Shown here: positions 32,719 to 58,097 of the stretch, piece after piece
How positions within the stretch are numbered: the first letter of the stretch is position 1
Layout of the letters: each line of letters begins with the position of its first letter
The notes under the pieces: model-generated
The model's input: only the letters and a program-made list of their open reading frames with translations
The model's database searches: none
What the model was told of the DNA's origin: nothing
Source: Dietzia psychralcaliphila
GTDB taxonomy: Bacteria > Actinomycetota > Actinomycetes > Mycobacteriales > Mycobacteriaceae
DNA: 64,000 nucleotides
Assembly: GCF_003096095.1 (NCBI RefSeq)
Contig: NZ_CP015453.1
Span: 2,418,001 to 2,482,000, forward strand
Direction of reading: 5' to 3'
Translations under genes and position numbers: made by a program

Positions 32719-33489
32719 CTATTCCCAGTAGCCGGTGGTCGCCCGGGCTTGGTCGTCGCGTTGGCGGCGCATGTCGACTTCGCCGAGGTTGATCTCGCGG
32801 GCGTTGTTGGCCAGGCGGTTGACGATGGAGTCGGCGGCGACCCGGTCGGGTAGCGCTTCGAGCCAGTACGCCGGTCGGGATTGGGAGGCGATCATCGTCG
32901 GCAGGCGATGCTCCCGGTTGGCCAGCACGGCGAACAAGTCGTTGGCGGCTTCAGGATCGATGCCCACGGTGAGGAAGTCGTCGATGATCAGCAGCTCCAC
33001 GTCCGACAGGTCATTGAGCATCTTCTGGTGGCGGATGCCGTCGCCGCGGGCGATGACCAGTCGCCGGGCGAGTTCGTCCATGCGGGCGTAGGTGACGGTG
33101 TGGCCGTTCTGGCAGGCGGCGATCCCGATCGCGCAGGCCAGGTAGGTTTTCCCGCCGCCGGTCGGTGAGAGGACCAGCAGGTTGGTGGGATCTTGGCGCC
33201 AGTGGTGCCCTGCGTAGCGTTTCATCCGCACCGGGGTGATCCCGCGTCCTTCCTGGTAGTTGATCTCGGCGATCGAGGCCTGCGGGATGGGGAACTTGGC
33301 GGCGCGGATCAGCTTGTCGATCCGGTGGGCCTGGCGCTGGTCCAGGGCGTCGTCGACGGCGGTGAGGAAGATCTGCTCCGGGGTGAGCTCGTCATTGGCC
33401 TCATCGCTGATGAGCTCCTCGAACCGGGTCGCCACATGGGTGATGCGCAGGTTGCGGAACTTCTGGTGATCGATCTCGGTGAACATCAC
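32719..33489 (-). CDS. istB: IS21-family helper ATPase IstB
   Basis: A 256-residue AAA+ helper. Walker A is SPTGGGKTYLA at about residue 108, Walker B is LLIIDDFLT at about 166, and an ASQSRPAYW segment follows. The N-terminal region is the usual helical DnaA-like part. The start is GTG 33489 or ATG 33486; either way it overlaps the istA stop. Full length, with no damage seen. Confidence 0.92.
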   Translation of the reverse strand: MMFTEIDHQKFRNLRITHVATRFEELISDEANDELTPEQIFLTAVDDALDQRQAHRIDKLIRAAKFPIPQASIAEINYQEGRGITPVRMKRYAGHHWRQDPTNLLVLSPTGGGKTYLACAIGIAACQNGHTVTYARMDELARRLVIARGDGIRHQKMLNDLSDVELLIIDDFLTVGIDPEAANDLFAVLANREHRLPTMIASQSRPAYWLEALPDRVAADSIVNRLANNAREINLGEVDMRRQRDDQARATTGYWE

Positions 33490-35087: not shown

Positions 35088-35232
35088 ATCAGCCTCCTCA
35101 AATAGGAAGAAGCGGCGCAGTCGCGCCGCCTCACCCCGAGCAGACCACCCCGCCCGCCCCAAGGAGTACCGAGTCACCGGAATCGCAGTACCGGATCACC
35201 GGACTAGGCGTACCCACTGGCCCTATCTGCCA

Positions 35233-35457: not shown

Positions 35458-36462
35458 TCAGTTCAGGCCAGCATAGGAGTGCAGACCGGAGACCACGATG
35501 TTGATAAAGAACAGATTGAAGATGAGCACCGCGAACCCGGCGAGGTTGATCCAAGCGGCCTTCTTGGGGCCCCAGCCACTGGTGGCACGGGCGTGCAGAT
35601 AGCCGGCGTAAAGGACCCAAGAGACGAAGGAGGCAGTCTCTTTGGGGTCCCAGCCCCAGAAGCGACCCCACGCGCCCTCGGCCCAGACAGCGCCCAGCAG
35701 GATGCCCACGCTGTAGATCGGGAATGCGATCACAGCGGTGCGATAGGCCAGTCGGTCGAGAGTGTCGGCATGCGGTAGTGGGCGGGAAAGCCCAGAGCTC
35801 CAGCCCGTTTCCTGACCCTGCGGTTGCCACACCCGGATCAGGTACATGATCGAGGCGACGCCGGATATCAACAGGATGGCCGATCCCAGCGAGATGATCG
35901 AGACGTGGATGGGCAGCCAGTACGACTGCAGTGCCGGCACGACGGGAGCGGCTTCGGAATACAGGTTGGTGCCGCCGAAAAACAGCAGGATAAGAACCGG
36001 TACCAGTACGAATGGCCAGGCCACCTGTAGGGCCGGCTTGCGCAGGAAAATCAGCCCGGCGCCCACGCCCAGCAGCGTGGTGGCCAGAATGAACTCGTAC
36101 ATGTTGCCCCACGGGAAGCGACCTGTGGCCACCCCGCGCAGGATCAGCGCAGCCGCTTGGAAGAGGAAGGCGATGATGATGAATAGCTGTGCGATCCGTG
36201 CCCAGCGGACACTGCCTGCGGACTCACGGTCCTCGTCTCCGGTGTCGGTGAGAGAGGTTGATTCTGTAAGCCCGGGCCCACCGGCACCCACTAGGTTCCG
36301 GCTTGATTTAGTCACCTTGGCTACCCGGAATCCGGCGTAGTAGATCAACGATGCGACAAGCGCCAGCACGTATAGACCGAACGCGGACCTATACGCCAGG
36401 TCGCTGTAGCTGGAGAGCGTCTCGTTGACAGGCAGTCCCTGCGCGAGAATCACAGTGTTCAC
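35458..36462 (-). CDS. ccsB: Cytochrome c biogenesis protein CcsB (CcsA/ResC type)
   Basis: A polytopic membrane protein of 334 residues from the System II cytochrome c machinery, which moves haem to the outside and joins it to apocytochrome c with ResB. About eight hydrophobic segments are seen. The haem-binding WWD-like motif is WGRFWGWDPKETAS near residue 275, with conserved His residues (LPIHVSI and the terminal GLHSY). I chose GTG 36462, which overlaps the resB stop by 4 bp; the upstream Met would overlap by 22. Cytochrome c maturation genes inside a copper region are notable. Confidence 0.93.
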   Translation of the reverse strand: MNTVILAQGLPVNETLSSYSDLAYRSAFGLYVLALVASLIYYAGFRVAKVTKSSRNLVGAGGPGLTESTSLTDTGDEDRESAGSVRWARIAQLFIIIAFLFQAAALILRGVATGRFPWGNMYEFILATTLLGVGAGLIFLRKPALQVAWPFVLVPVLILLFFGGTNLYSEAAPVVPALQSYWLPIHVSIISLGSAILLISGVASIMYLIRVWQPQGQETGWSSGLSRPLPHADTLDRLAYRTAVIAFPIYSVGILLGAVWAEGAWGRFWGWDPKETASFVSWVLYAGYLHARATSGWGPKKAAWINLAGFAVLIFNLFFINIVVSGLHSYAGLN

Positions 36463-38114
36463 CGGATGTTGTCCTTCCACGAAGCGTCGGGGTCGGCGCC
36501 TCGACTAGATGCAGTGTCGCTAGGTTCGGGCAAGACGGGTGTAGCAGTAGCAATGGTGGCCAGCCGGTCCCGGAGGTCGTCGAATTCCCGGCCCCAGCCC
36601 GATCTGTCCGTCTTAGCGAGGCCACCCAGGTCGACGCGGGTCGCCTGGGCCCCGTCGACAATGACCCGTGCCCAGATCCTTCGGCGACGGACCATCAACG
36701 ACAGGACGAGTCCACCCACCATGACGGCAGCGAACACGCCAACCCAGATCTGAGTAGGGTCCTCCGAGACCTGGATGTTGATGAACTCGTCGGCTCCATC
36801 GAAGCGAACCTCGGTGCCATCGGGCAGAGTCGTGGATTCGCCGGGCATGAGGTTGACGCGGGCCCTACGCTCCAACGCGCCCGACTCCATAAGGTCGGGG
36901 TCCAGCGAGAAGATCGACTGTGCGCCGCCATTGTCCAGGCCGGCGTTGCCCTGGTAGACGTCGATCGCCACCGCCGGGTCGTCCATCCGCGGGAAACGGG
37001 AGCTGAGTATGTTGCCGTCGAACGAGGCGGTCGGGGCGAACAGCCCCTGGATGGCGATCTGCTGCTCAAGGCGGTCGCCGATGTCCGGGTACATGCCGGC
37101 TGGCGGATCAAAGCGCATGATGCCGGAGGAGAGAAAAGTCAACAGGTCCGTCGGTTGCCACTGCACTGTGTCTGTACGGGTCTCGCCGTTGGGGAACGTG
37201 ACCGTGAACGTGGGCGCGAAGCCGTGACCTTGGAGGTAAACACGAGTACCGCCGATGCGCAGCGGGTGGTTGACCTGCAACGTGTAGGGCTCCCATGTGT
37301 CTGGATCGGTGGTAGTGACCTCCTCACTGAAGCGAATGTTGGAGGTGAACATCTCCGCCTGGCCATTGGGTAGATAGTCGGTACGGAAGTCTTCGACCTT
37401 GATACAGAACGGCGCCAAGTCAGTGCCGTCTACCAGCAGACCTGCCCGGAACGAGTCGTACGCACTAGGCGTGGTGTTGCAGAAGGCCGGCGCTTCCTCG
37501 TTGGCGATGATCACCCGCATGCCCTCCGCGTACACGAACTTGCCGGCCGCGAACGCGATCAGCAGGAACAGCAAGCCGAAGTGGAATACGATGTTGCCCA
37601 CCTCGCGCGCATATCCGCGCTCCGCGGACAGCTCGATGCTGCCCGACACGCGACCGTCCCCGTTGTTGCGACGGACCCGCCAGCCCTTGAGGCTCTTTTG
37701 GACCTGGTCCGCAGCCTGCTCCGGCGTGGCCGTGGTCCGGTACGCCGCATGATGCGGCAGGCGTGCAAGGTTACGCGGGGCGAGCGGCGGCGGGGCCTTG
37801 AGTTGTTTGACCAGATCAATCGACCGCGGTGTCAGGCAGCCCACCAGGGATATAAACAGCAACACGTACACGGCTGTGAACCACCAGCTGGAGAACACGT
37901 CGAACAGCTGGAGCTTGTCAAAGAACTCCCCCAGCCAGCCGTTGTCCGCGATGTACTGATTGACGTTTCCCTGGTTGAGGCTGCGCTGCGGCAGGAGTGC
38001 CCCCGGTATCGCCGCCACCGCCAGCAGAAATAGCAGAATCAATGCCGTGCGCATCGCGGTGAGAGTGCGCCATGAGTTGCGCATGAACGCGGTGACCGGA
38101 GCTATCCTAGGCAC
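36459..38114 (-). CDS. resB: Cytochrome c biogenesis protein ResB/Ccs1
   Basis: A 551-residue partner of CcsB. It has an N-terminal pair of membrane helices (TALILLFLLAVAAIPGALLP, and WWFTAVYVLLFISLVGCL), a third at about residue 175 (VFHFGLLFLLIAFAAGKFV), a large periplasmic domain with LRIGGTRVYLQGHGFAP, and a last helix near 490 (VGVFAAVMVGGLVLSLMV). This is the standard ResB plan, and the YLQGHGFAPTF-type motif is typical. Transcription probably starts from the repeat-box promoter at 38237-38295, with a short leader ORF between. It is coupled to ccsB by GTGA. Confidence 0.92.
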   Translation of the reverse strand: MPRIAPVTAFMRNSWRTLTAMRTALILLFLLAVAAIPGALLPQRSLNQGNVNQYIADNGWLGEFFDKLQLFDVFSSWWFTAVYVLLFISLVGCLTPRSIDLVKQLKAPPPLAPRNLARLPHHAAYRTTATPEQAADQVQKSLKGWRVRRNNGDGRVSGSIELSAERGYAREVGNIVFHFGLLFLLIAFAAGKFVYAEGMRVIIANEEAPAFCNTTPSAYDSFRAGLLVDGTDLAPFCIKVEDFRTDYLPNGQAEMFTSNIRFSEEVTTTDPDTWEPYTLQVNHPLRIGGTRVYLQGHGFAPTFTVTFPNGETRTDTVQWQPTDLLTFLSSGIMRFDPPAGMYPDIGDRLEQQIAIQGLFAPTASFDGNILSSRFPRMDDPAVAIDVYQGNAGLDNGGAQSIFSLDPDLMESGALERRARVNLMPGESTTLPDGTEVRFDGADEFINIQVSEDPTQIWVGVFAAVMVGGLVLSLMVRRRRIWARVIVDGAQATRVDLGGLAKTDRSGWGREFDDLRDRLATIATATPVLPEPSDTASSRGADPDASWKDNIR

Positions 38115-38189
38115 TGATTTGAGTCCCCTCTGCCGTTCCCGGTGCGACGAGCCGGATCGAGGGGCAGCTCCGGTGGGGCGTCGCCGGCT

Positions 38190-38228
38190 TCATAGCATCA
38201 TCAGCACCGCTCTAGCACGCATAGTCAC
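38190..38228 (-). CDS. Leaderless mini-ORF upstream of resB (12 codons)
   Basis: GTG at 38228 lies 8 bases after a -10-like GACAAT and encodes the peptide MTMRARAVLMML before a stop at 38190. The same peptide with small changes (MTVQARVVLML) starts at the same distance from the same promoter motif at 47564, upstream of tlpA. Conserved both in DNA and as a peptide, it is probably a translated leader that controls the following genes. It ends 75 bases before resB. Confidence 0.5.
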   Translation of the reverse strand: MTMRARAVLMML

Positions 38229-38236
38229 ATCTGGAG

Positions 38237-38295
38237 ATTGTCCTTCGCCGACCCCATTGATCCGGTCGGGGTTTGATGAAGGTCTGATCAAGATC
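38237..38295 (-). promoter_or_regulatory. CopR-box-like promoter of resB, shared with the regulator gene
   Basis: On the minus strand, tandem 11-bp repeats (TTGATCAGACC, TTCATCAAACC) at 38270-38291 are followed by CCCGACCGGATCAATGG and a -10-like GACAAT at 38237-38242. The same arrangement occurs at 41422 and 47497. The box lies between resB (leftward) and the response regulator at 38344 (rightward), so it may also serve autoregulation of that regulator. Confidence 0.65.
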
Positions 38296-38343
38296 GAGCA
38301 CGCGGTAGGCGCCAGTGGCAGACCTACGACGATGATTGGCCTT

Positions 38344-39120
38344 ATGTCCACATCCGATTCTCGAGACGCCGGACCTGAAGGTGAGTCACCGACCACTCGC
38401 GCGACCGCAGGGTTGCGGGCGATGGTCGTCGAAGACGAGCGTGAGCTCGCCGACCTCATCGGTACCTATCTGACTCGTGACGGCTTCGACCTCACGGTCG
38501 TTCATGACGGGCAGGACGCAGTCGACCTGATCCGGCAAGTCGATCCCGACGTCGTCGTGCTAGACCTCGGTCTTCCGCGGCTGGACGGCGTCGAAGTGTG
38601 CCGCCAGTTGCGCACCTTCTCCGATGCGTATGTCGTCATGCTCACCGCCCGCACCGAGGAGGTCGACACCCTCATCGGACTGTCCGTGGGAGCCGACGAC
38701 TACATGACCAAACCGTTCAGCCCACGAGAGCTCATGGCCCGCATCCAGGTCATGCTGCGCCGTCCTCGATCGTCTACGGCCTTACGCTCCCCGTCTGCGG
38801 CCTCCGATCACAGAGAGCTGCGAAGGATTGGGGCACTGGCAATCGACGTCGAAGGCCGCGAGGTCACCGTCGACACCACCCCGATCCAGTTGACCAGGAC
38901 CGAGTTCGACCTCTTGGCGGCACTGACGCGAGACCCCGGCTTGGTGCTGTCCCGGACGCAGTTGATCAATGCGATCTGGGGGCCCGACTGGGTCGGCGAC
39001 ACGCACCTTGTTGATGTCCACATCGCGCACCTCAGACGCAAGCTCGGAGACACTGCGTCCCGGGGCGCATACATCCGCACCGTCCGCGGTGTCGGCTACC
39101 GCACCGGAGATGGTCAGTGA
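38344..39120 (+). CDS. OmpR/PhoB-family response regulator (second system, CopR-like)
   Basis: A 258-residue regulator: receiver domain with acidic VVEDE, phospho-acceptor Asp in VVVLDLGLPRLDG, LTARTEE and Lys in TKPFSPREL, then a winged-helix domain ending HLRRKLGD...IRTVRGVGYR. ATG 38344 is chosen; an ATG four codons upstream is possible, and the long upstream frame runs back through the promoter and is not coding. The repeat box at 38266-38295 is just upstream. Overlaps the kinase gene by 4 bp (GTGA). It probably binds the tandem 11-bp repeats found through the copper region; that link is inference. Confidence 0.9.
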   Translation: MSTSDSRDAGPEGESPTTRATAGLRAMVVEDERELADLIGTYLTRDGFDLTVVHDGQDAVDLIRQVDPDVVVLDLGLPRLDGVEVCRQLRTFSDAYVVMLTARTEEVDTLIGLSVGADDYMTKPFSPRELMARIQVMLRRPRSSTALRSPSAASDHRELRRIGALAIDVEGREVTVDTTPIQLTRTEFDLLAALTRDPGLVLSRTQLINAIWGPDWVGDTHLVDVHIAHLRRKLGDTASRGAYIRTVRGVGYRTGDGQ

Positions 39121-40274
39121 GCCGGATCGATCTGGGTGACAACGTGACGCGCCTCAAGCGGTGGTTCACCACTGCCACCTTCGGTACCCGGCTACTGGCG
39201 GCGCTCGCTTTTGTGATGATCGGTTTCGCAGTCAGTGCCTGGGTCGTCGCCGCAATACTTGCCCCCGGAATCTTCCACGAGCATCTGGAGATGGCCGGAC
39301 TGTCACAGAACTCCTCCGAAGCAGCCCATATGGAGGAGGCATTCAACTCGTCAATGATGCTGTCTTGGTCGATCGCACTGGCGGTATCGGTGATCTTGTC
39401 GCTGGCTGTCAGCGGCTACATCGCCCGCCGCGTTCAACGATCGATCACCCCGGTCACCCGATCAGTCCAGCAGATCTCCGGTGGAGAATACAACTCACGA
39501 GTACACGAGCCGAGAATAGGTCGTGAATTCGACGATCTTGTCGCCAGCTTCAACGAACTGGCACGACGACTAGATGCCACCGAAACCACACGCCGACGGA
39601 TGCTCTCAGATCTCGCACACGAGTTGCGGACTCCCCTGGCCACGCTCGAATCCCACCTTGAGGCAATCGAAGACGGCGTCCGTGCACTCGACGACGACAC
39701 GCTGCGCATTCTGCGAACCGCGACTGGTCGGCTAGGCCGGCTCGCTCACGACGTCAGCGCGGTGTCCCGAGCCGAAGAACACCTCACGCGTCTCATCCCC
39801 ATCGGTACCGACACTCGCAGCATCATCGCGGCCGCGATCGACGCCCTGCGCCCCGAGTACTCGCACAAAAATGTGCTGCTCCAAGCACGTATTGATCAGG
39901 CAATACCGATCACTGTCGACAGTGATCGAATCAACCAGGTCCTGACCAACCTTTTGCACAACGCGCTCCGCCACACCGACTCAGGTGGGATGGTCACCGT
40001 CACCAGTCGCCTACACAACGGGAACGTGGAGATCACTATCGCCGACACTGGAGAAGGCATCGCAGCGCAGCACCTCGACCACATTTTTGACCGCTTCTAC
40101 CGCGTCGACACCGCACGCGACCGGGCACACGGAGGAAGCGGCATCGGACTCACCATTACTCGCGCACTGGTCGAAGCCCACGAAGGCCATATCCGCGTTC
40201 ACAGCGACGGGCTCGGCCGCGGCGCCCGATTCACGATCTCCTTACCGCAGACCCCGGCTCACTCCAAGGGCTGA
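39117..40274 (+). CDS. Sensor histidine kinase (second system, CopS-like)
   Basis: An intact 385-residue membrane kinase. Helix 1 is LLAALAFVMIGFAVSAWVV, then a short extracytoplasmic loop (about 70 residues, with HEHLEM, a SEAAHMEEAF stretch and many Met/His that could bind copper), then helix 2 (SIALAVSVILSLAVSGY), HAMP, the phospho-acceptor His in DLAHELRTPLATLE at about residue 165, and the ATPase motifs NLLHNALRHT, DTGEGI and GGSGIGLTIT. GTG start overlaps the regulator stop. Close paralogue of the frameshifted kinase at 29702-30851, so it may be the only working sensor of the two. Confidence 0.92.
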   Translation: MSRIDLGDNVTRLKRWFTTATFGTRLLAALAFVMIGFAVSAWVVAAILAPGIFHEHLEMAGLSQNSSEAAHMEEAFNSSMMLSWSIALAVSVILSLAVSGYIARRVQRSITPVTRSVQQISGGEYNSRVHEPRIGREFDDLVASFNELARRLDATETTRRRMLSDLAHELRTPLATLESHLEAIEDGVRALDDDTLRILRTATGRLGRLAHDVSAVSRAEEHLTRLIPIGTDTRSIIAAAIDALRPEYSHKNVLLQARIDQAIPITVDSDRINQVLTNLLHNALRHTDSGGMVTVTSRLHNGNVEITIADTGEGIAAQHLDHIFDRFYRVDTARDRAHGGSGIGLTITRALVEAHEGHIRVHSDGLGRGARFTISLPQTPAHSKG

Positions 40275-40275
40275 C

Positions 40276-41082
40276 TCAGTTGGTCGCGATACCGTTTTCC
40301 CGGAGCCACTCGATGGGGTCGGCGCGCTCCCGTCCCTCGTTCAACCACACCTCGAAGTGCAAGTGCGACCCGGTGGAAAAGCCACGACTTCCCATGAGGG
40401 CAATCGTCTGTCCAGCCTGTACACGCTGGCCGGTGGACACGAGAACCTCTTCCATGTGTCCATAAACGGTCATCGTGCCCTCATCCGACAGCAGTCGGAC
40501 CCAATTGCCGAACCCTTGCGCCGGGCCGGCATCGATGACGGTCCCGTCAGTCGCCGCCACGATCGGGGTTCCGATCACGTTTGCGATATCGATGCCGCCG
40601 TGGAGCGAGCCCCAGCGTTGGCCGAACTCAGACGTGAGGGTCCCGACTGTCGGCATCGCTGCTGTTGGACGGCGCGCGGTCTCCTCGGCAACTTGCCGGC
40701 GAGCGTCGATTTCGGTGCCTGCCGCCAATGACGACACCATGGCGGCAGCGCTCTCCAGCGGGATGTCGCCTTGCACCGCAACGGGCCCAGGCAGTTCAGC
40801 CGGGGGAAGGGCTATGTCTCCAGACTGGCCAGCAGGACTGATCGACTCCTCGTGCGCGATGAGGTGAATGTGCTCACCACCAGCCTCTGTGTGCTGGTCC
40901 ACTAGAAAACTTATCGAGGACACGATGGCCCCGGCGGCGACCGTGACGACGACGACCTGATCGCGTAACTCGGGCCGGGCGGAGGGTTGGCGATGCGTAC
41001 CGCCACCTCGAGGGCGACCAGAACTCGCCCAGATGTCGACAGTTAAAGGGTGTGCCTTGCGGCGTGCACGTCTTCGCTCCAC
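40276..41082 (-). CDS. M23-family (LytM) metallopeptidase
   Basis: A murein hydrolase or hydrolase-like protein of 268 residues. A basic N-terminus is followed by one membrane helix (VVVVTVAAGAIVSSISFLV, about 42-60). The C-terminal M23 domain has LHGGIDIANVIGTPIVA (zinc His and Asp), VYGHMEEVLV and HLHFEVW, the H-x-H pair that completes the zinc site. I prefer GTG 41082 (AGGGGAG 11 bases upstream) to the distal Met at 41187. It converges with the kinase gene, 1 base away. A repeat box at 41107-41128 suggests copper control. Confidence 0.85.
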   Translation of the reverse strand: MERRRARRKAHPLTVDIWASSGRPRGGGTHRQPSARPELRDQVVVVTVAAGAIVSSISFLVDQHTEAGGEHIHLIAHEESISPAGQSGDIALPPAELPGPVAVQGDIPLESAAAMVSSLAAGTEIDARRQVAEETARRPTAAMPTVGTLTSEFGQRWGSLHGGIDIANVIGTPIVAATDGTVIDAGPAQGFGNWVRLLSDEGTMTVYGHMEEVLVSTGQRVQAGQTIALMGSRGFSTGSHLHFEVWLNEGRERADPIEWLRENGIATN

Positions 41083-41106
41083 TGCCGCCGTGTCTCCCCT
41101 GCCGCT

Positions 41107-41128
41107 ATACCGTGATGGTTTCGTGATG
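41107..41128 (-). promoter_or_regulatory. Weak CopR-like tandem repeat upstream of the M23 gene
   Basis: On the minus strand CATCACGAAAC is followed directly by CATCACGGTAT, an 11-bp spaced repeat 25-46 bases before the GTG start of the peptidase gene. It is less like the other boxes, so the assignment is tentative. Confidence 0.35.
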
Positions 41129-41421
41129 TGACTTCTGCTCGAACTTAGACGAGCAGAGTCCCCGTCGCAAGAAGTGGGGGCCTGCACGCCCGTGTCGAAG
41201 AACGACCGGGAGCGGCTCCCTCAAGCGTGCATCGTGCCTAGAGTCTCCCTCTGACCACAGCCTCTGGCAGCGTTCATCAAGCTGCCTGTTGCGAGTGTCA
41301 GGGACTACGTGGGCGACATGGGAAGGCCTTCGGAAGCTGGACGTCCTGACAGGCTTCACCCAGGTTCACCCCAACTGGCCGCGCACCAATTCAGCACCGC
41401 GTCAGCGACCGTCACGTCCGG

Positions 41422-41487
41422 GATCTTGATCAGACCTTCATCAAACCCCGACCGAATCAAGAGGTCAGCACAGCACAATCTCCAGAT
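41422..41487 (+). promoter_or_regulatory. CopR-box-like promoter of the membrane protein/cytochrome b5 pair
   Basis: Tandem 11-bp repeats TTGATCAGACC-TTCATCAAACC (41426-41447) are followed by CCCGACCGAATCAA and -10-like CACAAT at 41474-41479, 8 bases before GTG 41488. It is nearly identical to the promoters at 38237-38295 and 47497-47555. Confidence 0.65.
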
Positions 41488-41982
41488 GTGACAGTGCGTG
41501 CGGCATTGGGGGACAAGTGGGGCGGGTCGCCGGCCGCCTCCCACCACGAAGAAGTGGACGAGCAGCTCGAGAAAGGGAAAGTGTCGCGATCACAAGATTT
41601 ACAGATTTCCGGACGATTGTTGTTGCTCGCACGAGCGGTGGCGTTAGTGACAGTCAGCGCCCTCGGACTCCTCTTCACTTCGGCAGGGGTGCTGGTCCAG
41701 GACGGCACCAGTCTGGACGTCCACAGCTCGGCCGCCATCGCCCTTCATGTCCTCACCGGCGTGCTGGCTCTGGTTCTAGGGTGGCGCGCGTGGGCTACAC
41801 GGCGAGGTCGCTGGGCTGCAGTCGTCGCCCTCGTCCTGTTCGGGGCCACGTTCGCCCAAGCGAGCTTAGGGGGCAGTTCGACCTTGGCATTTCACATCGG
41901 CGTAGCACTGGTGCTCACGGTCCTGTGTACGTGGCTGGCCGCCTGGACTTTCGGTAGATCACTATACGAGGAGATCGAATGA
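41488..41982 (+). CDS. Four-helix membrane protein, haem A synthase-like half
   Basis: A membrane protein of up to 164 residues. Four hydrophobic helices are seen: LARAVALVTVSALGLLFTSAGV, IALHVLTGVLALVLGWRAW, WAAVVALVLFGATFAQASL and AFHIGVALVLTVLCTWLAAW (each quoted only to its core). The second and fourth each carry a His (ALHVLTG and AFHIGVA), and with the QASLGG turn this recalls one half of CtaA/haem A synthase or a b-type cytochrome. The leaderless GTG 41488 keeps the start of the conserved leader peptide (MTVRAALGD), but GTG 41581 after GAAAGGGAAA may be the real start (133 residues). The exact function is unknown. Coupled by ATGA to the next gene. Confidence 0.6.
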   Translation: MTVRAALGDKWGGSPAASHHEEVDEQLEKGKVSRSQDLQISGRLLLLARAVALVTVSALGLLFTSAGVLVQDGTSLDVHSSAAIALHVLTGVLALVLGWRAWATRRGRWAAVVALVLFGATFAQASLGGSSTLAFHIGVALVLTVLCTWLAAWTFGRSLYEEIE

Positions 41983-42344
41983 GACTGCGCAGGACACTCA
42001 CCGCCTCCGGCTCCACCGCCGCCCTGCTCCTAGCTGTGGGCTGCGCCGGGAACGACACGGGCGCGCCAGAGCAGGCAGAGCAGCTCCAGACGGGCGAGAG
42101 AGCCGAGAAACAGGTCACGATGGCCGAGGTCCAGCAGAACGATTCGACCGACTCGTGTTGGACCGTGATCGAGAACATCGTCTACGACCTCACCGCGTGG
42201 GTCGACCAACACCCGGGCGGGCCGGACCGGATCGAGCAGCTGTGCGGCACAGACGGGACAGAGAGTTTCACCGACCAGCACAGTGGAGCGTCCCAGCCAC
42301 AATCGCGGCTCGCCGAGTTCCAGATCGGCCAGCTCGCCGGGTGA
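41979..42344 (+). CDS. Cytochrome b5-like haem-binding lipoprotein
   Basis: A 121-residue exported protein. The signal peptide ends at a lipobox-like LLAVGC (Cys about 21), so it should be anchored outside the membrane. Residues about 46-120 fit a short cytochrome b5 domain: VTMAEVQQ, CWTVIENIVYDLTAWVDQHPGGPDRI with the haem His in HPGG, and a second His in FTDQHSG. It is coupled by a 4-bp overlap to a membrane protein that may be its electron partner. Exported b5 domains are uncommon next to copper genes. Family assignment from motif reading only, but the HPGG signature is strong. Confidence 0.75.
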   Translation: MRLRRTLTASGSTAALLLAVGCAGNDTGAPEQAEQLQTGERAEKQVTMAEVQQNDSTDSCWTVIENIVYDLTAWVDQHPGGPDRIEQLCGTDGTESFTDQHSGASQPQSRLAEFQIGQLAG

Positions 42345-42399
42345 CCCGGCAGATATGCTTCCGATCCGCTCTGTGCGTCCCGGTCGGAGGCATGTGCCG

Positions 42400-42416
42400 G
42401 GCCCCGCTCCGGGGCC
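42400..42416 (+). terminator. GC-rich hairpin after the cytochrome b5-like gene
   Basis: Perfect 7-bp stem GGCCCCG/CGGGGCC with a 3-base loop, 55 bases after the stop. There is no T-run, as is common in actinobacteria. It may end the promoter-41422 transcript before lnt. Confidence 0.4.
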
Positions 42417-42507
42417 GCGCGCGTGGACTCAGCGAGGCCGTGAACGGGTTCGATTCGCTCCCCCCGCGACCTCTGCGGAAGACGAGAGCGCACCTCGCGA
42501 GCGTGAC

Positions 42508-44136
42508 ATGACAACACGACAGAAGAACCGTGGGCCGCAATCGGTGGTACTGCCAGCAGTCGGCCTCAGGATGGGCGGGGTTACCCGAAATCAACCGCGG
42601 TCAACGCCTTCTCGGCGGTGGCTAAATAGTCACCCCGTCGGCCGTGCGCTTGGTCGAATGGTGTCGTCATTGGGCGCAGGAATACTGCTGTACACCAGTT
42701 TCCCGCCTCTATCCTTGTGGTTTCTCGCCCCGGCCGGTCTTGCCATTTTGGTTCTGGCGGTCCGAGGGATCGGCGTGCGCGGCGCGTTCGGATTGGGATA
42801 CCTGGCTGGTCTCGGGTTCTTCGTACCTTTACTGCCCTGGGTGGGGGTTTATGTCGGCGCTGTCCCCTGGCTAGCATTAGCGGCGCTACAGGCCGTGGCA
42901 GTCGCTGTCTTCGCTGGGGCCACCGCACTGGTGGCGCGGCTGCCCGGGGCTGCACTGTGGATCGCGTGCTGCTGGGTGGCCACCGAAGCGGTTCGAGCGC
43001 GCCTGCCCTTCGGTGGGTTTCCCTGGGGCCGGCTGGCGTTCGGTCAGACTGATGGACCATTGCTGGCGATCGCTCAGATCGCTGGGGCGCCAGGGGTGAG
43101 CCTGTCCGTTGCACTGGTGGGCAGCGCGACGGCTGCAGTGGTCGTCGGACTTGCTCGGCGCTCCGCCTGGCGCTCGGTGTTGCTACTCGGGGCGGTGCTT
43201 GTGACCGCCTCTGCACTCGGCTCGATACCCGTCTCTACCGCACCAATCACCACCCCCTCTAAAACGGTTGCCCTAGTCCAGGGCAACGTGCCCCGACTCG
43301 GTCTGGATTTCAACGCGCAACGGCGCGCTGTACTGGACAATCATGTGGCTCGTACCGACGCTCTCGCCGCCGAGGTCGCAGCGGGGGTGAAGCCCGCACC
43401 GGATCTGGTGATCTGGCCGGAGAACGCATCAGACATCGACCCGTTTCGCAATGCCGACGCTGCAGAACAGATCGATGCGGCCACAGAGGCAATCGGCGCT
43501 CCGATCCTTGTGGGGGCGGTGGTGTCCACTGGCTCCGGTACCACCCGAAATACAGCGCTGGTGTGGGAGCAAGGAACAGGACCTGGCGATGCGCACGACA
43601 AAAGACGACTGGTTCCATTTGGTGAATATCTGCCAATGCGATCGATCGTGAGCAAGCTTTCGCCTTATGCCGCGCAGGCGGGCAACTTCGTGCCCGGTAA
43701 CGGCGATGGTGTGGTGACCATCGATGAGACACCGCTCGCTGTGGCCACCTGTTATGAGGTCGCGTTCGATGATCTGGTGGCCGAGTCGGTTCGGTCGGGG
43801 GCGCAGTTGATCGCGGTACCAACGAACAATGCAACCTTCGGCGATACCGACATGACCTATCAGCAGCTGGCGATGTCGCGGCTGCGCGCTGTCGAACACA
43901 ACCGCACGGTGGTGGTAGCGGCCACCAGCGGTGTCAGCGCGATTATCGCGGCGAATGGCGATGTGCTCGAGCAGACCGAAATGTTCACTGCCGATGCCCT
44001 CGTCGCACAGGTCCCGCTCAATACCGAGTTCACACTTGCCACCCGATTACGTTCAATTCCTGAACTCATCATCACGGTCACCGCAGTATTCGCGATGCTG
44101 GTGGGGTGGATTGCTAGCCGCCGTCGGCGGGGCTGA
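42508..44136 (+). CDS. lnt: Apolipoprotein N-acyltransferase
   Basis: Lnt adds the third acyl chain to the N-terminal Cys of lipoproteins. About 542 residues: several N-terminal membrane helices (LGAGILLYTSFPPLSLWFLAP onward) and then a nitrilase-like domain with the catalytic triad Glu in VIWPENASD, Lys in DAHDKRRLVPFGEYLP and Cys in ATCYEVAF. A last membrane helix closes the protein (IITVTAVFAMLVGWIA). The start is not certain: ATG 42508, 42571 or 42658 are all in frame, and the frame further up overlaps the previous gene. Many genes of this region encode lipoproteins, which could explain its presence here. Confidence 0.88.
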   Translation: MTTRQKNRGPQSVVLPAVGLRMGGVTRNQPRSTPSRRWLNSHPVGRALGRMVSSLGAGILLYTSFPPLSLWFLAPAGLAILVLAVRGIGVRGAFGLGYLAGLGFFVPLLPWVGVYVGAVPWLALAALQAVAVAVFAGATALVARLPGAALWIACCWVATEAVRARLPFGGFPWGRLAFGQTDGPLLAIAQIAGAPGVSLSVALVGSATAAVVVGLARRSAWRSVLLLGAVLVTASALGSIPVSTAPITTPSKTVALVQGNVPRLGLDFNAQRRAVLDNHVARTDALAAEVAAGVKPAPDLVIWPENASDIDPFRNADAAEQIDAATEAIGAPILVGAVVSTGSGTTRNTALVWEQGTGPGDAHDKRRLVPFGEYLPMRSIVSKLSPYAAQAGNFVPGNGDGVVTIDETPLAVATCYEVAFDDLVAESVRSGAQLIAVPTNNATFGDTDMTYQQLAMSRLRAVEHNRTVVVAATSGVSAIIAANGDVLEQTEMFTADALVAQVPLNTEFTLATRLRSIPELIITVTAVFAMLVGWIASRRRRG

Positions 44137-44294
44137 GATCCCCGGCCATGAGTGCGCGCCGATATCGGGAGCGGACCCGTCGTCGGCCGGGCCGGCTGCA
44201 GGCGCTCAACGTGAGCATGTCGGGCAGGGCGCCGAGGGCGAGAAATTGATGAGCTCCCGCGAGGTAAGGGCGAGAGCCAGCTCGAGGATTGGAC

Positions 44295-45263
44295 TCAGTA
44301 ATCGAGCCTATTTCTCGGACGTAGACGCCGTCGGCGTTCAGCCTCAAATCTGGTGCCGTAGCGATCACGAACGGTCATCGTTACGAGGCGGTCATGGGCC
44401 ACTGCCTCCGTGGCCGCATCCACCTCAGCAATATGACCGGATACGACATCAGGATCGATATCCCTGTCACCAGGTCCCACAGCACCGTCGCCTAGGCTGC
44501 CTTGCTCGTCGTTGCCCTGGCTACGTTGGCGGCGCCGCTCCCGGATTTCACTCCACAGAAAGTAGCCAAGCCCAATTGGCGCTAGAACTCCGAATGCAAG
44601 CCATTGAAGCCCATAGGACAGGTACGAACCCGCCTCGACTTCCGGTATCGGAGTTGGCTCGAGTGATCCTGGTTGGCCTCCGGGGAGCTGGAGATGATAG
44701 CCAGCAAGATCGAGATCCAGAACCCGACCGATCGTCGAGGTTTCAATGGAGCGCACCATGTGACGATCGTGCAGAACTATCGGTTCGGCCGGGGTGTCGG
44801 TGGGCATTCTGAGCCTGGCGGTGATGGTCACTGGATCGGCTACCGCGGCCGGGTAGGTCGGCACCGTGTTGTTCTCGCCAACGCGAACCCATCCACGATT
44901 AATAAGCAGATCATCGCCGCCCTCGGTCCGAAATGCGGTGAGAACTTGGTAAACCTGTTCCCCGTCGACAGCTTGCTGCCGCAAGAGCACTTCGTCTTCG
45001 GGCAGATAGCGACCGGTTACTGTGACCCGATGCCACTCGGATTCGTCCAACGGCGCGTCCCGCGCCGTCAATTCCGTCAACGGCACTGGATCGGCTTCGA
45101 CGCTGTGAAGAAGTTGGGAATTGCGCGTCTTCAAATCCTCGTTCTTGCCTAACTGCCATGGCGCCAACAGTGTGAAGCACGTATAGACGAACAGTGCGAC
45201 GGCGATGAAGGAAATCAACCACCCCGGCGTCATCACGCGAAAGACCCTCTGCACGCCGTTCAC
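44295..45263 (-). CDS. SURF1-family cytochrome oxidase assembly protein
   Basis: A 322-residue membrane protein of the SURF1 family, which helps assemble haem A or copper centres of cytochrome c oxidase. N-terminal helix (LISFIAVALFVYTCFTLLAPWQL, about 15-37, quoted in full core only), a periplasmic domain with LINRGWVRV, the family hallmark, and a second helix near residue 225 (LQWLAFGVLAPIGLGYFLW), with a charged C-terminal tail. ATG 45263 is plausible. Oxidase assembly beside copper efflux fits a role in protecting or metallating respiratory enzymes; that is inference. Confidence 0.85.
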   Translation of the reverse strand: MNGVQRVFRVMTPGWLISFIAVALFVYTCFTLLAPWQLGKNEDLKTRNSQLLHSVEADPVPLTELTARDAPLDESEWHRVTVTGRYLPEDEVLLRQQAVDGEQVYQVLTAFRTEGGDDLLINRGWVRVGENNTVPTYPAAVADPVTITARLRMPTDTPAEPIVLHDRHMVRSIETSTIGRVLDLDLAGYHLQLPGGQPGSLEPTPIPEVEAGSYLSYGLQWLAFGVLAPIGLGYFLWSEIRERRRQRSQGNDEQGSLGDGAVGPGDRDIDPDVVSGHIAEVDAATEAVAHDRLVTMTVRDRYGTRFEAERRRRLRPRNRLDY

Positions 45264-45458
45264 GGTAGGCGTGGTGGTAGGACGGTCGGCATCGGGGCCC
45301 TCCTGTCGGCACCAGCTCCGGCGATCATTAATCGTGCCCGCCTCCCGCCACTGTCGGCAGGGATGGTTCCGATCCGGCGAGATCAGCGTGTTGCGTGCCG
45401 AATTGTGGCATCCGGGCCTGGATCGGAAGTGTCGAGCAGCAGGTCGTTGTCTACGTCC

Positions 45459-46202
45459 TCAGATGACGACGCCGTTCGCGGCCAACCATGACACCGAGTC
45501 GATCCACTGGCCGGCGGGATTCTGTACGCCGAAGTGCACATGCGGACCAGTCGAGTAGCCACGGTTACCGACTTCACCGATCACCTGGCCGGCGGTGACC
45601 TGCTGGCCTTCGGTGACGTAGTTGGCATTGTTGTGGCCATACTCCAAGAGATAGCCGTCATCGGTCTTGATGCGAATCCATAACCCATAACCGGAAGCGG
45701 GGCCGGAGGCCACGACCGTGCCGGACTTGGCTGCATACAAGGGTGTGCCGATCGGCGCAGCGATGTCGGTGCCATTGTGGTTAGCGCCCCACCGCGAGCC
45801 GAAGCCAGAGGTGATCGTTCCATCAGTCGGCCTGTGAGCTTGGCTGGCGACCGAAAACGCCGAAGACGACGACTGAGCAGTATCGAATCCGAGCGCCTGG
45901 CTCAGCCCGGGGGCCTGACTTGCATACTGGCGGACCGCGTCAGCTCCGATGCCATAGCGGGCGGCAGCCTCTTCGACCATCTGTCCGACGTGCTCGGGAT
46001 CAGACGATTGGGCAGCGGCCACAGGGGCGACACTAAGCGCCGCGCCACCGGCGATTGCGGCGCCAGCCAGCGTGGTGGCGGCGATCCGGCCCACTCCCCT
46101 GGATCGGTTGGCGCGATGACGCCCACCAGCAGAGATGCGGTGGCCCACACCAAGCGAGTCCATGAGATCGGCGAACGGAACGCTCTTGGAGGAGCTCGAC
46201 AT
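45459..46202 (-). CDS. M23-family peptidase, exported
   Basis: A 247-residue exported murein peptidase. ATG 46202 follows AAGGA. A basic N-terminus leads to a signal-like segment (TLAGAAIAGGAALSVAPVAAAQ, cut after A-A-A-Q probable, about residues 44-65). Then a helical linker, and the LytM domain with NHNGTDIAAPIGTPLYAA, YGHNNANYV and HVHFGVQNP (all zinc ligands present). It resembles the secreted M23 enzymes that RipA-type or MtrA-controlled loci of Mycobacteriales carry. A 270-base upstream region to the CDF gene holds its promoter; I see no riboswitch that I can identify there. Confidence 0.9.
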   Translation of the reverse strand: MSSSSKSVPFADLMDSLGVGHRISAGGRHRANRSRGVGRIAATTLAGAAIAGGAALSVAPVAAAQSSDPEHVGQMVEEAAARYGIGADAVRQYASQAPGLSQALGFDTAQSSSSAFSVASQAHRPTDGTITSGFGSRWGANHNGTDIAAPIGTPLYAAKSGTVVASGPASGYGLWIRIKTDDGYLLEYGHNNANYVTEGQQVTAGQVIGEVGNRGYSTGPHVHFGVQNPAGQWIDSVSWLAANGVVI

Positions 46203-46472
46203 GATTGATTCCTTCAACTTAAGCGATGGTCGCAGCTTCATACCGACGACCACTGGAGACTCCCGAAACGGTAACAGTTGCATATCGTCCGGTCACGGAG
46301 AGTTTCCTGAGAATCCAGAAATCAGCAGTTCATACGCCATTTGTTAGTCATCTACGGCATCGCCCGACCGTTACCCCGACGTGATTTTTGGTTCGGATGC
46401 GGTCCGGTCGGGGCCACCCCGCAATCGTCCCGGGTGACTAGACCGCGATCAACGCAAGCAGGATCAAGGTCC

Positions 46473-47408
46473 TTACTCCTGCCCCCTCCTCGTACCCGCC
46501 GCACGTGTGATGTCGATCGCTGATGCCGCAGTCTCGTCGGGACAGTCGGTCTCCACCTGCACAGTAGAAAAGAAGAAGCGGTACCGAGCTTGAAGCAGGT
46601 TGGAGGCGGATTGGAGAACGATCTGCGGATCGGCGCTTGCGGAGGTGCGCAGGTGGCCGGAGAACACGAAACGTCCACTGGTTAGTGCCCAAGCATGGGC
46701 ATGATGGACGTCTTCCACCCCATCTATCGCTGCCAGGTCTTCAGTCACGTCAGACAGGTAGACCTCGTCGGGTGTGCCCTCCATGAGCAGATGGGTGGCG
46801 TCGCGCAGGATGCTCCAGCTTGCCCATACAAGCACGAAGCCGAACGCCAAACCGAGCAGCGGATCGATCAGCAAGAACCCGGTGAACTTGATCACTAGTG
46901 CGGTGACGATGATGAGCAGGCTGCCGACGAAGGTCTGGATGATGTGCCACAACGCGCCACGAACGTTCATGTCGCTGCGGCTTTGTTTCCAGATCAGGCT
47001 CAGGGCGACGATTTCGGTAAGCAAGCCTCCCGCGGCTGCCCACAGCATGGGCGTCGTGGGCAGGTCAACCGGATCATTCATGCGCATGGCAGCCATCACG
47101 ATCACCACCATCGCCATGATTAGCAGGAAACCGCCATTGACCAGCGCGCCTACGATCTCGGCGCGGTACCAGCCAAAGCTGCGATTTTCGTCTGCGGGGC
47201 GGCGGGCGAGTCGAGCAGCGAAGATGGCGACTAGGACACCACCGACCGCCGAGAAGGTGTGAAAAGCGTCCGAGATCACCGCAACCGAGCCGGTCCACAG
47301 CCCGATCGCCAACTCGATGACGAAGTAGATTCCCGTCAGCCAGGCCGAGATAGCCATGCCCCACCCACGAGCCTGCACCTGCCCGTGTCCACCATGCCCA
47401 TGTGCCAT
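46473..47408 (-). CDS. Cation diffusion facilitator family transporter with altered metal motifs
   Basis: A CzcD-like membrane transporter of 311 residues with a His-rich start (MAHGHGGHG) and six membrane helices, then a cytoplasmic C-terminal domain (DGVEDVHHAHAWAL). ATG 47408 is preceded by AAGGAG. The two H-x3-D motifs that hold the transported Zn in helices 2 and 5 are changed: helix 2 reads DAFHTFSAVGG and helix 5 reads WHIIQTFVGS, so both final Asp are lost (Ala and Thr). FGWYRAEI, NVRGALWH and LLMEG are family-typical. Metal choice may differ, perhaps Cu or none. It is divergent from tlpA and shares the promoter region at 47.4-47.6 kb. Confidence 0.85.
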   Translation of the reverse strand: MAHGHGGHGQVQARGWGMAISAWLTGIYFVIELAIGLWTGSVAVISDAFHTFSAVGGVLVAIFAARLARRPADENRSFGWYRAEIVGALVNGGFLLIMAMVVIVMAAMRMNDPVDLPTTPMLWAAAGGLLTEIVALSLIWKQSRSDMNVRGALWHIIQTFVGSLLIIVTALVIKFTGFLLIDPLLGLAFGFVLVWASWSILRDATHLLMEGTPDEVYLSDVTEDLAAIDGVEDVHHAHAWALTSGRFVFSGHLRTSASADPQIVLQSASNLLQARYRFFFSTVQVETDCPDETAASAIDITRAAGTRRGQE

Positions 47409-47496
47409 GGGGGTCTCCTTTTTGCACTCGGAATCCGGTTCTCGTGTCAGCTGCACACTGTGCATCGGTCTCGCGGCGCCCACAGCTTCTCTCGGG

Positions 47497-47563
47497 AATC
47501 TTGATCAGACCTTCATCGAACCCCGACCGAACCAATGGGGTAGGGGCGGCACAATCGTCCGGT
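47497..47563 (+). promoter_or_regulatory. CopR-box-like promoter of tlpA-ccdA
   Basis: Tandem 11-bp repeats TTGATCAGACC-TTCATCGAACC at 47501-47522 are followed by CCCGACCGAACCAATGGGG and -10-like CACAAT at 47550-47555, 8 bases before GTG 47564. Third copy of the cassette also seen at 38237-38295 and 41422-41487. Confidence 0.7.
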
Positions 47564-47599
47564 GTGACTGTGCAGGCAAGAGTGGTGCTGATGCTGTGA
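47564..47599 (+). CDS. Leaderless mini-ORF overlapping the tlpA start (11 codons)
   Basis: GTG 47564 opens an 11-codon frame, MTVQARVVLML, whose TGA stop at 47597-47599 overlaps the ATG of tlpA by one base (TGATG). Ribosomes ending on it could restart on tlpA directly, since no ribosome binding site is needed. The DNA and peptide match the mini-ORF at 38190-38228. Confidence 0.55.
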   Translation: MTVQARVVLML

Positions 47600-48252
47600 T
47601 GACGACGGATGTGTTCGGCAAGGGTGCGCAGCCCGGTAGCTGGGGCAGACGGGCAAGATGCCAACTGGCCGCAGTGGTGGTGAGTTCGCTTGTACTTACT
47701 GGCTGCGCTAGCGGCACTGATGCCGTCGCTTCAGGTGAGACGTTCGATTTTGTCAGCCCGGGCGGCCAGATTGAGATCTTCTATGATCCGCCGGCGGACC
47801 GCCAGAAGATCGCTCCGATGTCTGGCCCGGAAGTAGTAGATCCGGAGGCCACTGTGGCGGTCGCAGACTTTCCTGGCGAGGTGGTGCTGATCAACCTGTG
47901 GGGTCAGTGGTGTGCGCCCTGCCGGACGGAAACCGACGACCTGCAGCGACTGCAGGACAAGTACCAGGCGCAAGGCTTCACCAATCTCGGCGTCAACTTG
48001 CGGGACCCGAATCGGCAAAAGCCTGTCGACTTCATCGAGGACAACGGGGTCACCTATCCCTCAATTTGGGACCCGTCGCAGGCCGCGGTGGCGGCGCTAC
48101 ATGGTTTCCCCACCTCGGTGGTGCCAGCGACACTGATTCTCGACAAACAGCACCGAGTCGCTGCGGTGTATCTAGCAGAGGTCACCGACACCCAGTTGGA
48201 GCCGGTCATCGAGAGACTGCTGGCCGAGCCTGCTGAAAGCGACGCTGCATGA
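47599..48252 (+). CDS. TlpA/ResA-like thioredoxin lipoprotein
   Basis: A 217-residue thiol-disulfide redoxin outside the membrane that keeps the CXXCH Cys of apocytochrome c reduced. Signal peptide with lipobox LVLTGC (Cys about 36), then a TlpA-like domain: [16 protein letters not shown] with the active-site CxxC, the cis-Pro region [13 protein letters not shown], and the redox helix. ATG 47599 is set by the TGATG overlap with the leader ORF; the long frame upstream runs back through the promoter. It is coupled to ccdA by ATGA. Together with resB-ccsB at 35.5-38.1 kb it completes a System II set. Confidence 0.93.
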
Positions 48253-49103
48253 ACACGGTGCTGATTGCGCAATCTATTGGCCAGACGTTCCAACAAACTG
48301 CTGCCTCCGGACCTCTGCTGCTCGCGTTGGGAGCATGTGTCCTCGCTGGACTCGTCTCGTTCGCCTCGCCGTGCGTAGTCCCGCTCGTGCCCGGGTATCT
48401 GGCATATATGGCCAGCATCGTGGGTGCAGAGCGCCCGGCGGTGACTGTGCAGGCCGCCGAGCAACGCCGCGCCGAAGCCAGCTCGCTCACTCTTGAACAG
48501 CAGCGTCAGCGGGTGTCATCGCGACGACGAGTCGTCCTCGCCGCGGTGCTATTCGTTGCTGGATTCACGGTGGTCTTCGTACTGCTGTCGGCGATGGTGC
48601 TGGGCACCGTGCAATACCTCGCCCCCCGGCAAGAATTGCTGCAACGGCTCGGCGGTGTGGTGACCATCTTGATGGGACTGGTGTTCATCGGGGCCATACC
48701 CGCCCTCCAGAGGGACACTCGAATGCAGCCGAAAGCACTTTCCACCTGGGCGGGCGCGCCGCTACTTGGCGCCGTCTTCGCCCTGGGATGGACGCCGTGT
48801 CTCGGACCGACTCTGGCAGCGGCGTTGTCAGTTGCCGCCGGAACCGGACTCGACGCCGCACGCGGAGTACTGCTCATCGTGGCGTACTGCCTGGGGCTCG
48901 GACTGCCTTTCATTGTGGTGGCCTTCGGTTCGACGAGAGCCATCCGCACAGTGGGCTGGCTGCAACGACACACGCGAACGATTCAGATCGTCGGCGGCAT
49001 CATGCTCATCGTCGTCGGAATCTTGCTGCTCAGCGGCATTTGGACGCAGTTCGTGTACTGGCTCCGCGACTTCGCCGTCTCCGACACCACTCTGCCGATC
49101 TGA
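48249..49103 (+). CDS. ccdA: CcdA-like thiol-disulfide transporter
   Basis: A 284-residue polytopic protein that carries reducing power from cytoplasmic thioredoxin to TlpA-type proteins outside. Six membrane helices; the two redox Cys are in [13 protein letters not shown] (helix 1) and [11 protein letters not shown] (helix 4), both with the family Pro context. A charged loop (about 65-92, [19 protein letters not shown], quoted in part) lies between helix 1 and 2. It overlaps tlpA by 4 bp. Normal length for actinobacterial CcdA. Confidence 0.93.
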
Positions 49104-49151: not shown

Positions 49152-49181
49152 AACCTTGATCAGATCTTGACGAAACGATGA
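49152..49181 (+). promoter_or_regulatory. CopR-box-like repeat before the multicopper oxidase genes
   Basis: TTGATCAGATC (49156-49166) is followed directly by TTGACGAAACG (49167-49177), the same 11-bp spacing and a similar consensus to the other boxes. It lies 60-90 bases before the small membrane gene and the oxidase, so it probably controls both. Confidence 0.6.
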
Positions 49182-49240
49182 CCCAGATCTCGCAGTTCAC
49201 ACCGCAGAATCGAGTTTCTAAGACAGGCGAGGAGTTGAGT

Positions 49241-57504: not shown

Positions 57505-57862
57505 TGCGGGTGGGAAAGCCAATGAACTCGCACGGCAGAAACCAGGAGAGAACATGACATCTGATCGAATTCAGGATCCGGTCGACGCCGCCGGTTAGCT
57601 CGACGAACTCGCGGGCCCTATCCCGGGCTGGCAACCCGGTTGTTCCAATCGTCCCAGGCCATCACCGCAGGTCGTCACCGAAAAAGCCTTCGGGTTCGAG
57701 CAATGTGGCTACGGAGTCGGGCCAAAGGCAGCTCACCCTGGCCCACGCCCTTGGGCGCCCGAAAGACCAGCAGCGGCGGAGGGTGCTTCCATCGTTCCGA
57801 GCGCCCTAGAAGGGAGCCGCCATCATCGTGGCGCCAGCCCGAACCACTCCCCTGACGAACAT

Positions 57863-57893
57863 CTTGAGCAAACCTTCACACAATCTTCACCAC
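57863..57893 (+). promoter_or_regulatory. CopR-like repeat before the Cys-rich gene and copB
   Basis: TTGAGCAAACC, TTCACACAATC and TTCACCACAAT follow one another at 57864-57896, three 11-bp units. The central AAACCTTCA-CA-CAATCTTCA matches, as I recall it, the TGAAGATTT direct repeat (reverse strand) of Corynebacterium CopR better than the other boxes do. Confidence 0.65.
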
Positions 57894-58097
57894 AATCCGC
57901 TGGCTCACCCACGATCCTGACTGTCGGCCGGACCCCAGAACGCCAGGACGTGCGTCATCACCGACGGGAACGGCGATCCTGGGATGGGCGGTGTCACGAA
58001 CGTGGTCGGCCGAGCACAGATGTCAGCACGATTCGATACCCTGCGGCGGTATCGGCTCGTGGCCCGGAGCAACTGCTACTTGGCCCCACGGGAAGAG

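Follow-up and report, generated by a model that had tools for sequence, protein, structure and literature searches.

In Corynebacterium glutamicum, the CopRS regulon (cg3281-cg3289) comprises genes for an OmpR-type regulator and a kinase and, running divergently, a multicopper oxidase operon with tlpA among its genes, and copper also raises expression of the cytochrome c maturation genes (PMC3140484). About a third of the mRNAs of this species are leaderless, starting with AUG (79%) or GUG (21%) behind a TAnnnT -10 hexamer (PMC3890552). Mycobacterial leaderless small open reading frames (ORFs) are 5-50 codons long; their RTG lies at the start of the transcript or close to it, and their TGA overlaps the next RTG, a linkage that can outlast the peptide (PMC4633059). 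In Rhodobacter, CutO is controlled by the exported protein CutF, which combines copper and stalling motifs with an mRNA stem-loop (PMC9973294). Here we compare with them a window of 64,000 nucleotides (nt) of Dietzia psychralcaliphila (RefSeq assembly GCF_003096095.1, contig NZ_CP015453.1, positions 2,418,001 to 2,482,000 of the forward strand; coordinates below count from its first letter), in which a repeat box, a -10-like hexamer and a GTG recur in front of resB-ccsB, a cytochrome b5 group and tlpA-ccdA. We propose, with a probability of roughly 0.57, that a regulated promoter was duplicated here together with a leaderless start which would deliver ribosomes to these operons and not attenuate them.

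A promoter cassette present three times

The original prediction, made from the letters alone, had described the same order of elements at three loci, and coordinates and a genome search bear this out: each copy runs from the box through a spacer to GACAAT or CACAAT, followed after 8 nt by the GTG. It had also stated correctly that the frame opened by the GTG is a mini-ORF with its own stop in two copies and continues into a membrane protein in the third (copy 2). The cassette is less uniform than supposed, the spacer of copy 2 being one base shorter, and the box is not confined to the three cassettes, as box and hexamer also occur at 49155 and 57863 without a mini-ORF.

38260..38292, minus strand: copy 1 box, three 11-bp units (matrix score 40.2)
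38237..38242, minus strand: copy 1 -10-like GACAAT, at box positions 51-56
38190..38228, minus strand: copy 1 mini-ORF, GTG at 38228, MTMRARAVLMML, 12 codons plus TGA (38192-38190), ending in ATGA
41425..41457, plus strand: copy 2 box (matrix score 39.7)
41474..41479, plus strand: copy 2 -10-like CACAAT, one base nearer the box than in copies 1 and 3
41488, plus strand: copy 2 GTG, its frame without a stop and open into a 164-amino-acid frame
47500..47532, plus strand: copy 3 box (matrix score 37.2; 25.1 with the register shifted by one unit)
47550..47555, plus strand: copy 3 -10-like CACAAT, at box positions 51-56
47564..47599, plus strand: copy 3 mini-ORF MTVQARVVLML, 11 codons plus TGA (47597-47599), ending in GTGATG
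49155..49210, plus strand: fourth site, box with CAGAAT at positions 51-56, no mini-ORF (matrix score 19.1)
57863..57918, plus strand: fifth site, box with GATCCT at positions 51-56, no mini-ORF (matrix score 43.5)

The box covers 33 nt of 11-bp units: CTTGATCAGAC, CTTCATCAAAC and then the degenerate CCCGACCGAAT. When the whole 3.9-Mb genome was searched with copy 2, the matches were copy 2 itself (E value 6e-38), copy 1 (3e-23) and copy 3 (5e-14), and since the next match reached only 0.15, the likeness of the cassettes is not due to chance. Copies 1 and 3 resemble each other from the box to roughly the mini-ORF stop, where the resemblance fades (matches in the adjoining 30 nt: 8/30 upstream, 10/30 downstream), and GTGAC together with the eight bases before it is identical in copies 1 and 2. 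A mobile element was considered as carrier and rejected; we prefer local duplication because there are just three copies, all inside 9.4 kb. Scanning 37900-47800 for the sigma-70 consensus returned 0 promoters, compared to 2.5 in shuffles, and thus lends no independent support to the cassette promoters. Such a blank is expected if the -35 element is weak and an activator is required.

The box as probable target of a CopRS-like two-component system

Copy 1 is adjoined by genes for a response regulator and a sensor kinase. These genes and those behind the fourth and fifth sites are as follows; SD stands for a Shine-Dalgarno site.

38344..39120, plus strand: OmpR-family response regulator, CopR-like (Pfam Response_reg and Trans_reg_C; relatives found)
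39117..40274, plus strand: sensor histidine kinase (Pfam HAMP, HisKA and HATPase_c)
49241, plus strand: start with SD (energy -8.2) downstream of the fourth site, then a multicopper oxidase (Pfam)
58154, plus strand: start of a P-type ATPase frame downstream of the fifth site (Pfam E1-E2_ATPase)

The regulator family was detected in 108 of 301 genomes of the taxonomic family (E value 1e-60). From 28 site sequences at relatives' loci (L020, L021, L106-L131) the 19 distinct ones were combined into a weight matrix; none came from the window, but the window's own box was one of the three 22-mers that had selected the input sites. The matrix identified five places in the window (57863, 38292, 41425, 47500 and 49155, in falling order of the scores given above). 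Elsewhere in the window the best score was 7.3, and a single match above 8 was found in 400 kb of this genome. This sole other strong box of the 400-kb sample (L191:10305, own genome C1, ~1,710,305; score 32.2) is followed by a gene start behind CAATGT and likely belongs to the targets of the same regulator or of a sister of it.

The distance between box and hexamer is also kept among relatives. At box positions 51-56, nAnnnT was found in 25 of 26 family loci (L106-L131, best box match each), some of which are nearly identical to one another; among ten more distant loci (L020-L029) the hexamer stands there in 4 alone. Two plasmids, of Gordonia pseudamarae and Rhodococcus pyridinivorans, likewise carry the box and, equally far from it, a -10 hexamer. 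In both, the box is located between the regulator and a divergent run made up of a small SHOCT or hypothetical gene, a multicopper oxidase, a DUF305 gene and a copper ATPase. The fourth site of the window (49155) resembles most of the relatives' sites compared, in that the next gene is SD-led. The claim that one shared promoter joins resB-ccsB, the cytochrome b5 group and tlpA-ccdA is backed by the matrix sites and by this fixed distance.

The sequence shows the box to be of the CopR type, a direct repeat of 11 bp, and the adjacent CopRS-like system most likely binds there. Against the published CopR motif TGAAGATTTnnTGAAGATTT (18 positions), the cassettes match at 13, 13 and 14 positions and the sites at 57859/57870 at 15 and 16. 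Copper is the likely inducing signal, since two P-type ATPases and a CsoR-family metal-sensitive repressor are encoded in the window too. Regulator and kinase, multicopper oxidase, tlpA and a direct repeat of 11-bp period are shared with the CopRS system of C. glutamicum. That system has one site in the genome, 266-285 bp upstream of the cg3286 transcript start (PMC3140484), whereas here five sites lie in one window, at a fixed distance to the -10 hexamer and with the ccs genes inside the island.

Since 49155 and 57863 have box and -10 without a mini-ORF, the regulator's promoter does not in itself include the mini-ORF, which goes with the duplicated version. The same two sites bear on the idea that the stretch past the -10 works not as an ORF but as DNA or as initially transcribed sequence, through promoter escape or as a second binding site. 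The identity of GTGAC and its eight preceding bases in copies 1 and 2 fits this idea, to which we nevertheless give almost no credence, since neither 49155 nor 57863 has the conserved stretch and no motif was identified in it.

At four of the 26 family boxes (L113, L120, L122 and L128), ATG AAC AA(G/C) comes 6-7 nt behind the hexamer, so that the box may there drive directly leaderless genes. The regulator gene of the window (38332-38344, plus strand) has no SD at its ATG (-0.9), and the bases upstream shift frame between genomes. A second response regulator (30851-31594, minus strand), 71% identical to the first, has a kinase of its own, which may be interrupted because near 30610 the alignment with the first kinase goes out of frame.

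The GTG as a plausible leaderless start

Spacing and composition make the cassette GTG a plausible leaderless start, as had been predicted. We surveyed 464 kb (20 stretches plus the window) with 311 gene-like frames and 835 candidate starts. TAnnnT preceded candidate starts by 6, 7 and 8 nt in 16, 15 and 8 cases, respectively, compared to 0.4, 0.8 and 0 expected. At ATG starts, gaps of 6 and 7 nt were the commonest in this sample (10 and 11 times, versus 2 at 8 nt), and at GTG starts gaps of 6 and 8 nt were equally frequent (6 and 6). An 8-nt gap is therefore acceptable for the cassette GTG, because it occurs in this genome, 6-7 nt being commoner.

Copy 2 provides a test by composition. Within codons 1-31 counted from its GTG, G or C occupies the third position in 24/31 and the second in 14/31 (p 0.009; 0.016 minus the start codon), the other reading frames lack a coding-like composition, and in the first 32 codons the sole change among four genomes is silent. 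For the mini-ORFs of copies 1 and 3, pooled and with the start codons removed, coding-like composition was not significant (p 0.11). In the part of the C. glutamicum survey drawn on, no duplicated unit of promoter plus start is described for leaderless mRNAs (PMC3890552).

A gap of 6 nt, which would place an RTG-TGA start-stop at the 5' end of the transcript, is at least as good as one of 8 nt. The transcript would then begin 2 nt before the GTG with AUG (copies 1 and 2) or GUG (copy 3), followed by UGA, and this element would hold ribosomes, the GTG frame being little used. Besides the prevalence of 6- and 7-nt gaps, the retention of RTGTGAC in 13/13 cassette copies compared speaks for it, as do 48 novel ORFs of Mycobacterium tuberculosis consisting of start and stop only (PMC9094748). 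We consider it improbable: the coding-like frame of copy 2 is the GTG frame, GTG starts show gaps of 6 and 8 nt equally often, and RTGTGAC may have been retained by recent ancestry.

Downstream genes and possible translational coupling

If the GTG is a leaderless start, the three operons would be joined to it in different ways. The genes concerned are:

36459..38114, minus strand: resB, GTG start, own SD (-8.1 kcal/mol; Pfam ResB)
35458-36480, minus strand: ccsB, after resB (Pfam Cytochrom_C_asm)
38107..38193, minus strand: 28-codon frame opened by the ATGA of copy 1, ending inside the resB start
41488..41982, plus strand: 164-amino-acid membrane-protein frame from the cassette GTG (no Pfam match)
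41979..42344, plus strand: cytochrome b5-domain protein (Pfam Cyt-b5)
47599..48252, plus strand: tlpA, ATG 47599 (or GTG 47596), no SD (-2.5 kcal/mol; Pfam AhpC-TSA/Redoxin)
48249-49103, plus strand: ccdA, after tlpA (Pfam DsbD_TM)

The predicted overlap of the copy 3 stop with the tlpA ATG (TGATG) is confirmed by the coordinates: the TGA shares its A with the ATG, and GTGA stands at 47596-47599. SD-led starts nearby range from -5.5 to -8.7 kcal/mol, compared to -2.5 at tlpA. Coupling can thus be upheld as plausible for tlpA, which combines a missing SD with a stop-start overlap. It does not extend as such to copy 1, whose ATGA opens not resB but the 28-codon frame, which is not coding-like by GC content at its three codon positions (0.61, 0.68, 0.79). 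The copy 2 frame holds an internal SD-led GTG at 41581.

The arrangement of copy 3 and tlpA resembles the mycobacterial coupled leaderless class, in which TGA overlaps the next RTG. There, coupling was proven by 5' ends and ribosome profiling, whereas here it is a reading of the sequence and the unit was copied to three operons. As leaderless small ORFs coupled by RTGA were already in print in that work (PMC4633059), the arrangement is not as unfamiliar as the original prediction held. Genes for a lipoprotein N-acyltransferase-like protein and for a SURF1-family member are found in this island too (window 42553-45263).

Mini-ORF peptides and attenuation

The likeness of the two peptides had been taken to imply a translated leader, perhaps for attenuation. 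Comparison of the mini-ORFs of copies 1 and 3 revealed 3 replacement and 2 silent codon differences and one 3-nt indel. Between genomes, R changed to T in copy 1 (G005, G012) and Q to H in copy 3 (G005), i.e. 2 replacements and 0 silent changes. In the absence of constraint 26-30% of changes should be silent (25/98 and 26/88 possible changes). Two silent among seven changes is therefore a neutral ratio, matching the absence of selection, although the numbers are small and the test is low in power because all cassette copies are recent. Furthermore, the mini-ORFs are identical at 30/36 positions and the copied spacers at 17/25, an excess that is not significant (p 0.14). With 5 replacement against 2 silent changes and mini-ORFs not significantly more alike than spacers, a function of the peptide is not borne out. 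Its sequence is probably irrelevant, the likeness reflecting duplication.

These data also fit a reading in which duplication of the promoter took along part of the transcribed DNA, including mini-ORFs without any role, so that likeness past the -10 is common ancestry and nothing more, and in which translation of resB, tlpA and the membrane protein begins at starts of their own. Insignificant excess identity, neutral codon changes, the SDs of resB and of the internal GTG of copy 2, and the lack of a mini-ORF at the regulator's other two sites are all in its favor. We hold it to be unlikely, if worth serious attention, since tlpA lacks an SD and abuts the mini-ORF stop exactly, the copy 2 extension is coding-like, and the single indel between copies 1 and 3 amounts to 3 nt.

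An attenuator, as in the original prediction, would require that the peptide is sensed or stalls ribosomes and so controls the operons. No terminator-like site was found between any mini-ORF and its gene in a terminator scan, the folds of the three leaders are ordinary (z-scores -0.18, 0.14 and 1.21), Rfam gave no match for the leaders, and the peptides contain no residue run pointing to a sensed amino acid. The mini-ORF is moreover missing from two of the five sites and from G003, a genome of the same genus. Together with the 5 replacement and 2 silent changes, this makes attenuation very improbable, in spite of similar peptides at two operons and an indel of 3 nt. There is a reported precedent: Canestrari is said to have described, in 2020, polycysteine leaderless attenuators in mycobacteria, with a short leaderless ORF before the operon. 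The cassettes are alike in this last respect, but have no cysteine run or attenuator feature. Similarly, CutF is a small upstream ORF before copper genes, but its copper and stalling motifs and its stem-loop were not seen here (PMC9973294).

Distribution and history of the cassettes

Cassette DNA was searched for in 23 genomes of the genus, 301 of the family and 348 of the order, the family and order samples being drawn from larger groups and overlapping. Four genus genomes matched, with three copies each. The 6 matching family genomes were these four plus G295 and G025, and the order sample yielded the own genome alone. G295, of another genus (75% complete, 4% contaminated), carries the tlpA copy; G025 was rejected as a carrier, its match being 19 nt only and looking like chance. 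Neither a plasmid search with copy 1 nor a pattern scan of viral contigs gave a match. Outside the near-identical island, the mini-ORF peptide was found in none of the genus, family or order genomes, a search of low power; the cross-species conservation that had been proposed as a check thus came down to near-identical copies of one island. In G005, G012, G020 and G295 most island proteins are 95-100% identical; the lowest identities belong to a small frame at 49178 (84-85%) and to part of a CDF gene in G295 (93%).

Matches to tlpA were present in 296 of 301 family genomes (E value 1e-30), and close comparison was made with G003, the nearest outside the island among 30 loci. There, resB, ccsB, tlpA and ccdA are contiguous and 80-90% identical, and no box (at the thresholds used here) was detected in 20 kb around the ccs operon, nor a mini-ORF. 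Because the likeness of tlpA to the G003 copy starts only at residue 16-23, its 5' end has been replaced. The cassettes seem to have been added when the halves of the ccs operon became separate operons around the regulator.

An IS21-family transposase gene (33486-35177, minus strand) adjoins the end of ccsB; the element shares 95% identity with a copy from a Dietzia lutea plasmid and 94% with those on Rhodococcus plasmids, copies ranging over 93-95%. In the copy 2 leader, about 32 nt (41534-41565) are 87.5% identical, in reverse orientation, to 55830-55860, where the P-type ATPase gene at 54657 encodes a membrane segment.

A proposed unit of promoter and start codon

In the mechanism we favor, binding of the active CopRS-like regulator would bring RNA polymerase to the -10 hexamer at box positions 51-56, and this promoter would have been copied to three operons together with the start of its transcript. 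Transcription would probably begin at the conserved GTG or about 2 nt before it, and ribosomes would load at the 5' end without an SD. Copy 2 would supply the membrane protein with its N-terminus directly, through the GTG frame. In copy 3, ribosomes would end the 11-codon frame at GTGATG and restart at SD-less tlpA. In copy 1 the 12-codon frame would stop in ATGA and at best be relayed via the 28-codon frame into resB, itself SD-led.

Several observations weigh against this proposal. In the CopR motif control, 13/18 was reached in 15 of 20 shuffles (14/18 in none). At 8 nt, enrichment is weaker for CAnnnT, the kind of hexamer present here (4 versus 1.2 expected), than for TAnnnT. The 30 codons past the copy 2 GTG stay open in 43% of shuffles, so that the open frame alone is no evidence. 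The missing SD of tlpA is not unusual, because ccdA and the regulator gene likewise lack one, and resB, having its own SD, needs no coupling. Finally, RTGA-coupled small ORFs stood behind TAnnnT in 1/106 cases and behind control hexamers in 12/428 in this genome sample; as this is no enrichment, we do not claim such coupling as a habit of the genome.

More tentatively, and at less than even odds, we suggest that the promoter and its leaderless start codon (about 100 bp) move as one unit: a target gene would gain both regulation and SD-free ribosome loading, joined by in-frame fusion or by stop-start overlap, and the halves of the ccs operon, contiguous in G003, would so have been recruited to a copper regulon. 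Among the open-access papers searched, judged by titles and the openings of abstracts, we found no promoter duplicated with a leaderless start. The cassettes open no new class of leader peptides. If the proposal is true, leaderless translation would ease regulatory rewiring, since a promoter with its own start codon needs no SD in its target, and this would account for cytochrome c maturation genes having come under apparent copper control in this group.

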